A stretch of 64,000 nucleotides of DNA from Apostichopus japonicus (lineage: Eukaryota; Echinodermata; Holothuroidea; Aspidochirotida; Stichopodidae): assembly GCF_037975245.1 (NCBI RefSeq), contig NC_092577.1:26843398-26907397 (forward strand). The letters are read 5' to 3'. This document shows, in pieces, positions 8,501 through 42,700 of this stretch. Position 1 is the stretch's first letter; each line of letters opens with the position of its first letter. The notes beneath the pieces were generated by a model. It worked only from the letters and a program-made list of their open reading frames with translations, was not told the DNA's origin and ran no database searches. The position numbers were made by a program, and so were the translations under genes.

Positions 8501-11500
8501 ATAATATAATGTTTGATATTTAGCTAGCTTGGTCTTAGTTGAGTATTTGATAAATCTATTCTTAGGCAGCTGTCTGAGTTCAGTTATTTTAATTTCTGAG
8601 AAAGTAAGGAATCCTACTTAAGACTGCAATTTATCAAAGCATGATAACTCTAGGTTTGCCTTTGTCATTAGCTATCGAGTATTTCATGAATATTTTAACT
8701 TCTAAAAAGTGCCGGAAACATTTGTGATTTAATAAATAATACAAGAAGTCAAACTGAACTAATTAAACTGAGCACTGCGATGCAGCTTTAGTGCCAAGTA
8801 ATGTTGCAAACTCAGATGCAAAAAAGATTTTGAGTACTAGTTTGTTGCTGCTGTCATAGCATACCCTCAGTGTTCTGATACCCCACCCACCCATCACTCC
8901 TGTTTGTCTACTATTATAATAAAGCATCACAACAGACAGTGTACGAGTGCTCAAGCAAAGTAACAGGACATGTTGATCTGCCTCCTCTTGTAGATACAGA
9001 GAATAACCAAGATGTCCAGAGTGTTGTGACAGCTAACGCTAGCATTGGTGAAGCCAGCGTGATGAACCGGGAGAGTACCAGTCACTTGGAGGTTGCAGGG
9101 GTCATGACCGATGACACGGTCAGTGATACAGCCAGTGCCAGCACCAGGGCCATTGCTGGTGCTAGCCTTACAGGAAGTCTTTCTGGTAGTGGAGGAGTTG
9201 GACCTGCAGCAGTCGGCATGTCTAGTCATCATAGGTATATCCCCCCCCCCCCCTCTCACCACCTCCTCATCCCTTCACAACTCTAGATCATTGTACAAAC
9301 ATCATCAGTACTAAGATCAGTTTTATCTTACAGATTGATGATAACCCTCTCCCCCCCCCCCCTCTCACCACCTCCTCATCCCTTCACAACTCTAGCTCAT
9401 TGTACAAACATCATCAGTACTAAGATCAGTTTTATCTTACAGATTGATGATAACCCTCTCCCCCCCCCCCTCTCACCACCTCCTCATCCCTTCACAACTC
9501 TAGCTCATTGTACAAACATCATCAGTACTGAGATCAGTTTTATCTTACAGATTGATGATAACCCTCTCCCCCCCCTCTCACCACCTCCTCATCCCTTCAC
9601 AACTCTAGCTCATTGTACAAACATCATCAGTACTAAGATCAGTTTTATCTTACAGATTGATGATAACCCTCTCCCCCCCCCCTCTCACCACCTCCTCATC
9701 CCTTCACAACTCTAGCTCATTGTACAAACATCATCAGTACTAAGATCAGTTTTATCTTACAGATTGATGATAACCCTCTTCCCCCCCCCCCTCTCACCAC
9801 CTCCTCATCCCTTCACAACTCTAGCTCATTGTACAAACATCATCAGTACTAAGATCAGTTTTATCTTACAGATTGATGATAACCCTCTCCCCCCCCCCTT
9901 TCACCACCTCCTCATCCCTTCACAACTCTAGCTCATTGTACAAACATCATCAGTACTAAGATCAGTTTTATCTTACAGATTGATGATAACCCTCTCCCCC
10001 CCTCTCACCACCTTCTCATCCCTTCACAACTCTAGCTCATTGTACAAACATCATCAGTACTAAGATCAGTTTTATCTTACAGATTGATGATAACCCTCTC
10101 CCCCCCCTCTCACCACCTTCTCATCCCTTCACAACTCTAGCTCATTGTACAAACATCATCAGTACTAAGATCAGTTTTATCTTACAGATTGATGATAACC
10201 CTTTCCCCCCCCCCCCCTCTCACCACCTCCTCATCCCTTCACAACTCTAGCTCATTGTACAAACATCATCAGTACTGAGATCAGTTTTATCTTACAGATT
10301 GATGATAACCCTCTCCCCCCCCCCCCCCTCTTAACACCTCCTCATCCCTTCACAACTCTAGCTCATTGTACAAACATCATCAGTACTAAGATCAGTTTTA
10401 TCTTACAGATTGATGATAACCCTCTCCCCCCCCCCCCCCTCTTAACACCTGCTCATCCCTTCACAACTCTAGCTCATTGTACAAACATCATCAGTACTGA
10501 GATCAGTTTTATCTAACAGATTGATGATAACCCTCCCCCCCCTCTCACCACCTCCTCATCCCTTCACAACTCTAGCTCATTGTACAAACATCATCAGTAC
10601 TAAGATCAATTTTATCTTACAGAATGATGATAACCCTCCCCCCCCCCCTCTCACCACCTCCCAATCCCTTCACAACTCTAGCTCATTGTACAAACATCAT
10701 TAGTACTAAGATCAATTTTATCTTACAGAATGATGATAACCCTCCCCCCCTTCTCACCACCTCCCAATCCCTTCACAACTCTAGCTCATTGTACAAACAT
10801 CATCAGTTCTAAGATCAATTTTATCTTACAGAATGATGAACCCCCCCGCTCGCCAGTATTGTGATCATTTGACCATCATAATTATTCTTTATGATTGATT
10901 GTAAATAACACCACCGCTGAAATAACCAGGATATTTACTTTAATTGATGACCCGCCGCCTTTCTCGGTGTGTCAAGATTGGCCTAGAATACCATCTTATG
11001 TCAGAATGCGTTTATTCTAAAGACTGTTGTAATCAGACTTAAGGAGGGACAAATGTCTTTGCTGGTGGTAGAATGTGTTGATATAATTTTGTTGTTCCTT
11101 TCATTTCTAGAATGGATGTCCATGCTGAAATAGTTGGCAAGAGGCTGAGTTTGAGCAGTGAATCCACCTCTATGTGCTATCCTGATAGTAGTAGTCTGGT
11201 AGGACAGGCAGGATTTATACAGGAAGAGGGAGGTAAGTAAAGATCTCTGAAACCTGTTACATAGCAATGAATTTAGGAACAAGACACTAACTACTAACAT
11301 AGTCTAGTATCAAGTAGCTAAATAGTCTATGTATGGAATGTAGTAGCATGTTGATTCTTGTTTAAAAATTGTCGTACCTTGGTCAGTTAAGCTGATACTG
11401 TGGACTGCTGTATCAGTCAGTATGAGTTGCTGTAGTACTGGGTCAGGCCATTCTTGTCGTACCTTGTTCAGTTAATTAAGCTGATACCGTGGACCGCTGT

Positions 11501-39700: not shown

Positions 39701-42700
39701 TAACAAACAGACTTCAGACCAGCCACATAAATAACTGTGTTCTTCTACAGTTGCAAAGGAACGCAATTCTTTCTTCATTCTATCCATGACTTTCAATCAT
39801 TCAGCAATCAGTGAGTACATTAATGTATTCACTGTGGCATGTAGCAGTATTTGCAATGCACACAATACCTCAGTTCAGCAATCAGTGAGTACTGTAATGT
39901 ATTCACTGTGGCATGTAGCAGTATTTGAATGCATACAGTACCTCAGTTCAGCAATGAGTGAGTACTTTAATGTATTCACTGTGGCATGTAGCAGTACTTG
40001 CAATGCATACAATACCTCAGTTCAGCAATCAGTGAGTACTTTAATGTATTCACTGTGGCATGTAGCAGTACTTGCAATGCATACAATACCTCAGTTCAGC
40101 AATGAGTGAGTACTTTAATGTATTCACTGTGGCATGTAGCAGTACTTGCAATGCATACAATACCTCAGTTCAGCAATGAGTGAGTACTTTAATGTATTCA
40201 CTGTGGCATGTAGCAGTACTTGCAATGCATACAATACCTCAGTTCAGCAATCAGTGAGTACTTTAATGTATTCACTGTGGCATGTAGCAGTACTTGCAAT
40301 GCACACAATACCTCAGTTCAGCAATCAGTGAGTACATTAATGTATTCACTGTGGCATGTAGCAGTACTTGCAATGCATACAATACCTCAGTTCAGCAATC
40401 AGTGAGTACTTTAATGTATTCACTGTGGCATGTAGCAGTACTTGCAATGCATACAATACCTCAGTTCAGCAATCAGTGAGTACTTTAATGTATTCACTGT
40501 GGCATGTAGCAGTACTTGCAATGCATACAATACCTCAGTTCAGCAATCAGTGAGTACTTTAATGTATTTACTGTGGCATGTAGCAGTATTTGCAATGCAC
40601 ACAATACCTCAGTTCAGCAATGAGTGAGTACATTAGTGTATTCACTGTGGCATGTAGCAGTACTTGCAATGCACACAATACCTCAGTTCAGCAATGAGTG
40701 AGTACTTTAATGTATTCACTGTGGCATGTAGCAGTATTTGCAATGCATACAATACCTCAGTTCAGCAATGAGTGAGTACTTTAATGTATTCACTGTGGCA
40801 TGTAGCAGTACTTGCAATGCACACAATACCTCAGTTCAGCAATGAGTGAGTACATTAATGTATTCACTGTGGCATGCAGCAGTACTTGCAATGCACACAA
40901 TACCTCAGTTCAGCAATGAGTGAGTACTTTAAAGCAGCATTTTGCGTCATTTTCTATGATTTTTCTCAACCTCACTGATTCCACTTTGCTATAACGACAT
41001 ACATAACTAGCTAATCTATTTATATTTTACTTCAAATGGTGGCATAAAAGTCGAAAAATTTGCAACTTTCAACTTTGTTGTTCTCCAAGATATTTTCCGT
41101 TGGGAACCCAATAAACCTCGCCCATAATATGAATATTTAAACACTACGAACGTCATTGACAGATACGTAATATAACACCACGCTTGATTTGTGTACAGTC
41201 TATATGGCAGTTGTACCAGGGAGTTGCATAACAACTCCCTGGTACAACCAACGCGAAGTCTTGAATCTATTTTTAGCAACGGCTCATAACTAAACCTGCA
41301 TCTCTGATTGGTTGAATTCAAACTAGTGGGTTTGACGGAATTGTATGCGATTAATTTTAACTGTGAAATTTGTCGAGGACACTCTTCTCATTTATCGACA
41401 TAAATCGTTAATTACTCGCTAATTAACGCTCTTGGCAGGGTGAAACTTGGATGGTATCTTAGATTGCTGTTTTATGATTGATACATGTAAAAAAATCGAT
41501 GCACATGTTAAAAAAGTGGAAAAAAGCGACCCAACGCAAAATGCTGCTTTAATGTATTCACTGTGGCATGTAGCAGTACTTGCAATGCATATAATACCTC
41601 AGATCAGCAATGAGTGAGTACTTTAATGTATTCACTGTGTCATGTAGCAGTACTTGCAATGCATACAATACCTCAGTTCAGCAATGAGTGAGTACTTTAA
41701 TGTATTCACTGTGTCATGTAGCAGTACTTGCAATGCAAACAATACCTCAGTCTGACAGTTTCCTCCTCCTCTGCTCTTCTCTGTGCTTCTCTTGAGTTTG
41801 CTGCAACCTCAACATTGGAGACCAGCTCAAAGCCATCAGTTGTCAATTTACTTAATCTCTGTTACAAGAAAGCAAAGCAAGTCAAATTTATCTTGAAGCC
41901 AACCTTGAACCAACTATAATATGATATGTTCAGATGAAAAAGACTTGAATGAAGGGTTAGCAACTTGAATTTTACAGGAACTGTAAGAACATTGAATATG
42001 AAATACTCATTCCTTAATATCAATTTATGATATTTACGAGTGCATACTGCAGGTAAATAGCACACCAAAACTATAAACACAAAGCACAATTGCTGAGTAC
42101 TAATTAAGTGTCAGTTTACATTCATAATGCACTTTAACAGTAGAACAATCAACTATGAATTGATGGAAGCAGGTCACTTCGCCCAACAACCATTTCGCCC
42201 AACTGCCATTTCGCCCAACCTTACCAGTTGGGCGAAATGACCAGGCTGGTTGGGCGAAATGGCAGTTGGGCGAAATGGTTGTTGGGCGAAGTGACCAGAA
42301 AGCGAATTGATTACCTGTCTACTGTCTTCAACCTGTCTTCTGCTTTTACTTTGTTCTTCTTTGGCTTCTTTCTTCTTAGCATTGGGATCTTCACCCATTG
42401 CTTCCCTGTTAAAGAAATTTAAACATAAGAACAATTTAGATCATAGAACTACTGTATTCCTGATCCTAAGTGGTAATATTAGAGGCAGGCCTTAGGTTAC
42501 CTCTGCTGTGTGTATGAAGCTGGATTCAGTAAAGGCTAGTCTACTTCAGCTTCAAACAGTCACACAAGGATTGACAAGTACTGTATATGGTGATGACCCA
42601 TTCTTCCTCAGCAAAATCAACAATTGAAATGATATAGCCATATGAAGTGGTATCCAGTCAAAACGTCCCTTTATCAAAACAACCCTGCATTTTTAAGACC

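Follow-up and report, generated by a model that had tools for sequence, protein, structure and literature searches.

Why should minisatellites in the introns of a sea cucumber begin so close to 5' splice sites (donors)? The question arises from a stretch of 64,000 nucleotides (nt) of Apostichopus japonicus (NC_092577.1, positions 26,843,398 to 26,907,397; hereafter the window), which lies on contig C17 and carries DRC1 on the minus strand and a gene that, following a preliminary description of the window, we take to be RNF19. On the evidence from the window and from parts of 14 dynein heavy-chain genes outside it, the tandem repeats at intron starts are in our judgement best explained by the donor tolerating duplication, an explanation that we consider probable although far from certain.

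Tandem Repeats Finder (TRF) gave 67 rows on the window, and the 5' edge of an array was measured from the first intron base, negative values lying inside the exon. The preliminary description had placed six arrays within about 15 nt of a donor; four of them do begin within 15 nt, two begin beyond that distance, and all six fall within 25 nt (Table 1). Its count of four AG/GT donors (the slash marks the junction) was confirmed by the exon ends CATAG, CTGAG, AGAG and TACAG, the remaining two exons ending in TCT and GAT. Three arrays, at DRC1 exons 3, 5 and 15, copy the junction as had been stated. That they do so in every unit is true of the exon 3 array, where GT is kept in 16 of 16 further copies, and nearly true of the exon 5 array (68 of 70 further copies); at exon 15 the 81-bp repeat includes six exon nt and the junction. 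No donor copy is held by the arrays beside DRC1 exons 10 and 12, and seven further arrays or blocks lie elsewhere in the window introns. The statement that no array is comparably tied to a 3' splice site (acceptor) did not hold: array 35758-38634 almost fills the 2882-nt intron after DRC1 exon 5 and has its other end 30 nt from the acceptor, and 24 nt separate the end of the RNF19 array 11369-11874 from an acceptor.

The RNF19 donor at 9235 was set by reading frame and splice signals. When DRC1 exons 2-12 and one later exon were joined, the product was colinear with solved DRC1 (8j07_1, 546 bits), and this alignment lends support to the donor positions at exons 3, 5 and 10. The join at exon 12 falls in a poorly aligned part of the alignment, the later part of which is loose, and exon 15 lies outside the query. 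The exon numbers 12-15 follow the preliminary description and are tentative; between exon 12 and the exon that ends at 21948 there may be an exon 13 that escaped notice. The introns 29426-22096 and 21947-20010 may hide an exon, which would shift the expectation calculated for the window.

The dynein sample comprised 207.7 kb. A PF12780 profile search gave 62 exon matches, from about 16 dynein heavy-chain genes, and genes were picked by this protein-family match, with the match list roughly setting their order, and not by repeats; the first four pieces were chosen before repeats were examined, and the later ones after short loci had been scanned. Homology between paralogues together with splice signals gave 218 supported exons and 204 introns (median 577.5 nt), 19 of which contain a strong array (period at least 20, identity at least 85% and length at least 100). 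A first gene model of one gene, C10, had 33 exons, 15 phase breaks and spurious mini-exons; accordingly, only homology-supported exons were counted. Nine of the 54 arrays, which do not lie between supported exons, were dropped, leaving 45, and low-complexity or cut junctions removed 10 donors and 12 acceptors of the 218. Donor C23:2289 proved to be mis-set: protein and sequence point to 2223 (GAG/GTGAGC), and with that correction its array starts at +8 and there is one junction copy fewer. In the merged loci of C3 and C21 (L028, L030, L018, L032), multi-frame protein-level matches common to dynein loci were seen, probably a dispersed repeat, and these stretches were excluded from exon calling.

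A junction was counted as copied when the 24 nt centred on it recurred with at least 80% identity no more than 3 kb away. In the dynein sample 10 of 208 donors and none of 206 acceptors were copied; without the mis-set donor the counts were 9 of 207 and 0 of 206 (Fisher p 0.0036), five of the nine donors having one further copy and the others 3 to 33. The same contrast was found along introns of 400-3000 nt. Copies were seen at 9 of 147 donors (the mis-set one included) and at 7.6-9.8% of positions +90 to +300. None was found at 150 acceptors; the share was 0-1.6% for sites 30-90 nt short of the acceptor and 4.2-6.7% for those 120-300 nt short of it. Inside exons it was 0 to 1.4% overall, with none at -60 in 145 exons. 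Strong arrays likewise occupy 9844 of 138649 intron nt versus 212 of 41825 exon nt. Sequence at the donor is thus covered by copies almost as frequently as mid-intron sequence, but the acceptor, the final 90 nt of the intron and the exon body are very seldom covered; in this respect the donor closely resembles ordinary intron sequence, and the acceptor and the exon do not. The donor association noted in the window extends beyond it, with a sharp contrast between donor and acceptor, and the causes that the preliminary description had favoured for it are weakened, as described below.

Array edges were compared with uniform placement in introns and with a tolerance null, in which arrays may enter the exon by up to 60 nt and must stay 20 or 100 nt off the acceptor. 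The edge ranges and the filter for strong arrays were chosen after the arrays had been seen, and all p-values here are indicative only. Eight of the 19 strong dynein arrays start at -60 to +20 of a donor, and one ends as near an acceptor. The number of such starts expected is 1.6 under uniform placement and 4.5 or 6.0 under the tolerance null (p 0.034 or 0.16). In the window, where the test excluded unbounded arrays (among them 1298, 4709, 13352 and 16471) and array 18929-19920, for which the acceptor was not set, 5 of 12 arrays start in this range versus 1.4 under uniform placement (p 0.0003) or 2.4-3.0 under tolerance (p 0.03-0.07). A null that does no more than keep arrays away from exon bodies and acceptor regions accounts for much of the clustering. 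Among all 45 dynein arrays, 9 start at -60 to +20 versus 7.2-9.1 expected, so that the tolerance null is not rejected, and a strict test with the edge within 15 nt gave 4 versus 1.8-3.1, which is not significant.

From these observations we suggest the following course. Minisatellites would be born in place by tandem duplication, a process that may be frequent across the introns of this genome. A duplication spanning the donor would keep the first authentic donor in position, transcribed first and joined to its proper exon, so that the mRNA would remain normal and the further copies would do no harm in the intron. If instead a duplication crossed the acceptor or fell inside an exon, it would alter the mRNA and be lost. 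The copied donor might then expand into a decoy array, and the 5' edges of arrays would consequently accumulate at donors. In addition, breakpoints may modestly favour positions no more than about 20 nt from the donor. What we see directly in the sample is the tolerance pattern; why it arises is our inference.

Several results weigh against tolerance as the whole account. When dynein and window arrays were pooled, 13 of 31 started at -60 to +20 versus 6.9 or 8.9 under the tolerance null (p 0.003 or 0.035), and in the wider range of -60 to +100 there were 13 of the 19 strong dynein arrays versus 7.9-9.2 (p 0.005-0.026). Half of the edges in that wider range (10 of 20) lie within 20 nt of the donor (p 0.016); for intron-side edges alone the count is 5 of 11 (p 0.058). 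Furthermore, the exonic share of the duplicated segments averages 0.25 of the repeat offset, versus 0.5 for random breakpoints (p 0.0006), where the smallest offset was used when several were possible, a choice that raises the share. In addition, the donors were set by homology and splice-signal scoring and not by complementary DNA (cDNA). The short exonic share may reflect either selection against long exon tails, which carry exon signals, or breakpoints favouring the exon end. A modest excess at donors remains beyond tolerance.

Part of this evidence would suit a donor-targeted mutation, in which duplication starts preferentially at exon ends through transcription breakage, R-loops or U1 binding, and so seeds arrays. 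The residual excess of edges and the short exonic share are what it would produce, and the copied donors tend to be strong (median score 6.74 versus 4.92 for those without copies, p 0.078, mis-set donor included). The position profile speaks against it, the donor showing no higher rate of copies than the stretch from +90 to +300, as does the full set of 45 arrays, which shows no excess over the tolerance null. Word counts over the 671.6 Mb of the 35-contig genome, with the reversed word as control, also bear on it. The donor word ACAGGTAAG occurs at 13209 single sites versus 5284 for the control, and in 267 pairs 15-45 nt apart versus 73; 267 to 73 does not mean 267 events, for a few arrays dominate, the 100 pair places listed falling into 4 clusters on contig C2. 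The tandem rate per site is 2.0% versus 1.4%, a ratio of 1.46, and among the first 100 single-site places listed (90 loci on C1) two loci are tandem, a figure for the donor word only. AGGTAAGT occurring twice with a 6-nt gap gave 2 matches versus 10 in the control, that is, no excess at that spacing. The paired counts, weak evidence as they are, give no sign of a strong hotspot at donors. The breakage at transcribed or U1-bound donors proposed in the preliminary description is weakened accordingly, because tolerated placement covers much of the clustering and the per-site tandem rate of the donor word exceeds that of its control by a factor of just 1.46, and we regard donor-targeted mutation as unlikely. 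Similarly doubtful is the related view that tandem duplication in this lineage is seeded by a hotspot at the exon-intron junction itself, for example by breakage near U1-bound donors, with about 4% of donors copied, often as intact decoys that splicing ignores. As for priming at AGGT, the 13 duplications across a donor have an exonic part of 6-58 nt, and the junction lies within the copied segment rather than at its border, so that this form of priming is not supported. Among the matches listed for the donor word, a 49-bp array at G000:C2:2297031-2299245 holds 43 ACAGGTAAG pairs.

The copies themselves are often good donors. In a DNAH2-like intron 33 further copies of CTACAG/GTAAGA all keep GT, with a mean score of 8.38 versus 8.52 for the real donor. 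Among ten copied junctions (C23 omitted), the score is kept within 0.2 in seven and is weaker in three, namely DRC1 exon 5 (4.65 to 1.61), C10 13558 (8.73 to 5.49) and C20a 2251 (8.73 to 6.29). Proteins joined across three donors, a DNAH2-like one with the 33 copies, a copied DNAH12-like one and an array-overlapped DNAH1-like one, align without gaps at the joins with solved DNAH2, DNAH12 and DNAH1; the DNAH1-like model has a 16-residue insertion at a different join. These gapless joins indicate that the first copy is the donor giving the conserved protein, with many equal donors downstream; the cell presumably uses the first copy. Decoys maintained by selection, whether as U1 sinks, recursive-splicing points or splice regulators, would also keep their strength, and AG/GT copies resemble ratchet points. 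The three junctions with weakened decoys and the arrays at DRC1 exons 10 and 12, with their lack of donor copies, count against such a role; selection on decoys, another of the causes put forward earlier, is not required, and we think it very unlikely.

Two further origins of the arrays were considered. When 25 unit queries were searched against the dynein sample and the window, 24 matched their own array only (for the DRC1 exon 3 unit, its two blocks), which indicates that birth in place from local sequence is the rule in the sample and that mobile elements are not the usual source. The exception is a 29-bp unit that fills two DRC1 arrays about 4 kb apart between exons 12 and 15 (22620-23872 and 28010-29418), perhaps in one long intron. 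The two share a flank of about 53 nt in inverted orientation (23864-23916 versus 28007-27956), as if the array or a carrier had moved. That would suit arrays carried by mobile elements inserting near donors; against it, the copied segments include the host exon's own tail, and this origin is highly improbable. The preliminary description had also pointed to the proposal that tandem duplication of AGGT sites can create introns. On this view (the Rogers model, of which there are published cases; PMC4974935) the arrays would mark introns newly made by tandem duplication of an AGGT-containing exon. The DRC1 exon 5 intron is almost wholly array, and one DNAH2-like intron, C10 13558, is nearly so, its array ending 49 nt from the acceptor. 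On the other side, intron sequence makes up most of the copied segments, the tail of exon being short, no acceptor junction of 206 is copied, and by eye the start of DRC1 exon 6 differs from the exon part of the unit. An exonic AGGT duplication creating both splice sites was not found, and the flanking exons join normally wherever this could be tested; no case of intron creation emerged, and we give this model the least credence of all.

Table 1. Exons and arrays at splice sites in the window (positions in the window; exon numbers and gene labels as in the text).
Feature	Position	Strand	Remarks
RNF19-like exon	8994..9234	+	Open frame to CATAG/GTATATCC at 9235; start from the preliminary description; lies upstream of array 9244-10839
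109-bp array, 14.9 copies	9244..10839	+	TRF; 5' edge at +9 from donor 9235; consensus unit without the donor junction
85-bp array	11369..11874	+	TRF; ends before RNF19 acceptor 11899; 3'-proximal counter-example
74-bp array, units copy ACTGAG/GTATTG	41547..41751	-	TRF; 5' edge at -6, inside DRC1 exon 3 (donor 41745); 16 further junction copies
Second block of the 74-bp unit	39800..40932	-	TRF; intron after DRC1 exon 3
DRC1 exon 5	38610..38747	-	Acceptor and donor signals; colinear with 8j07_1
39-bp array, 73.6 copies	35758..38634	-	Intron 38609-35728 (donor 38609); 5' edge at -25, inside the exon; units copy CAAATAG(A or G)G/GTATGG; 70 further junction copies
DRC1 exon 10	32081..32294	-	Donor 32080, TCT/GTAAGT; colinear with 8j07_1
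46-bp array, 38 copies	30314..32063	-	TRF; 5' edge at +17 from donor 32080
DRC1 exon 12	29427..29606	-	Donor 29426, GAT/GTAAGA; splice signals
29-bp array, 48.9 copies	28010..29418	-	TRF; 5' edge at +8 from donor 29426; unit recurs at 22620-23872
DRC1 exon 15	19915..20010	-	Donor 19914, ATACAG/GTACAG; frame and splice signals only
81-bp array copying ATACAG/GTACA	18929..19920	-	TRF; 5' edge at -6, inside DRC1 exon 15 (donor 19914)

Some of these arrays have further features. The 109-bp unit of the RNF19 array contains a C-tract and an acceptor-like TTTTATCTTACAG, and about 15 decoy acceptors may therefore lie in that intron. The reading frame of DRC1 exon 5 stays open into the 39-bp array, which takes up most of a 231-codon frame (38058-38750, minus strand) and would encode a 13-residue repeat. 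The two blocks of the 74-bp array lie in one intron, with about 600 nt of different sequence between them.

An intron in which the real donor is followed by dozens of near-identical ones offers a natural test of first-donor choice. The asymmetry between donor and acceptor suggests a simple rule for where genes can accommodate tandem duplication and is relevant to models of how introns grow and are gained.

The phenomenon resembles known ones. Closest are the mirages of amphioxus, found in the genes for Adh3, globin, troponin C and PGBD5, which are likewise minisatellite-like tandem duplications of the exon/intron boundary, with units of about 10-160 bp and AG/GT in many of them; normal splicing has been reported for the mirages (PMC3087553, PMC3902484). 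Normal splicing would also agree with the gapless joins in the present alignments to solved dyneins and DRC1. Here a repeat unit spanning the exon/intron boundary is found in 3 of the 6 window arrays and at 9 of 207 dynein donors. Amphioxus mirages differ in duplicating both 5' and 3' boundaries, BflGb6 being a 3' case, whereas none of the 206 dynein acceptors is copied. The variable internal tandem repeats of human duplicated genes (PMC2812944) are also minisatellites; they sit where exon meets intron and alter or lengthen the intron. Those genes are recent segmental duplicates with transcript evidence, whereas ours are conserved cilia genes whose arrays are presumably spliced out. In the potato RdRp case (PMC4974935) tandem duplication also involves AG/GT, but the present arrays lie within introns, and no new intron was demonstrated. 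No title announcing a genome-wide count of arrays at donors was found among those that came up, nor was a donor/acceptor count in the parts of the literature considered. The arrays described here thus resemble a known, mirage-like kind of phenomenon, and by counting across parts of 14 genes we give numbers to what the papers considered here describe one gene at a time.

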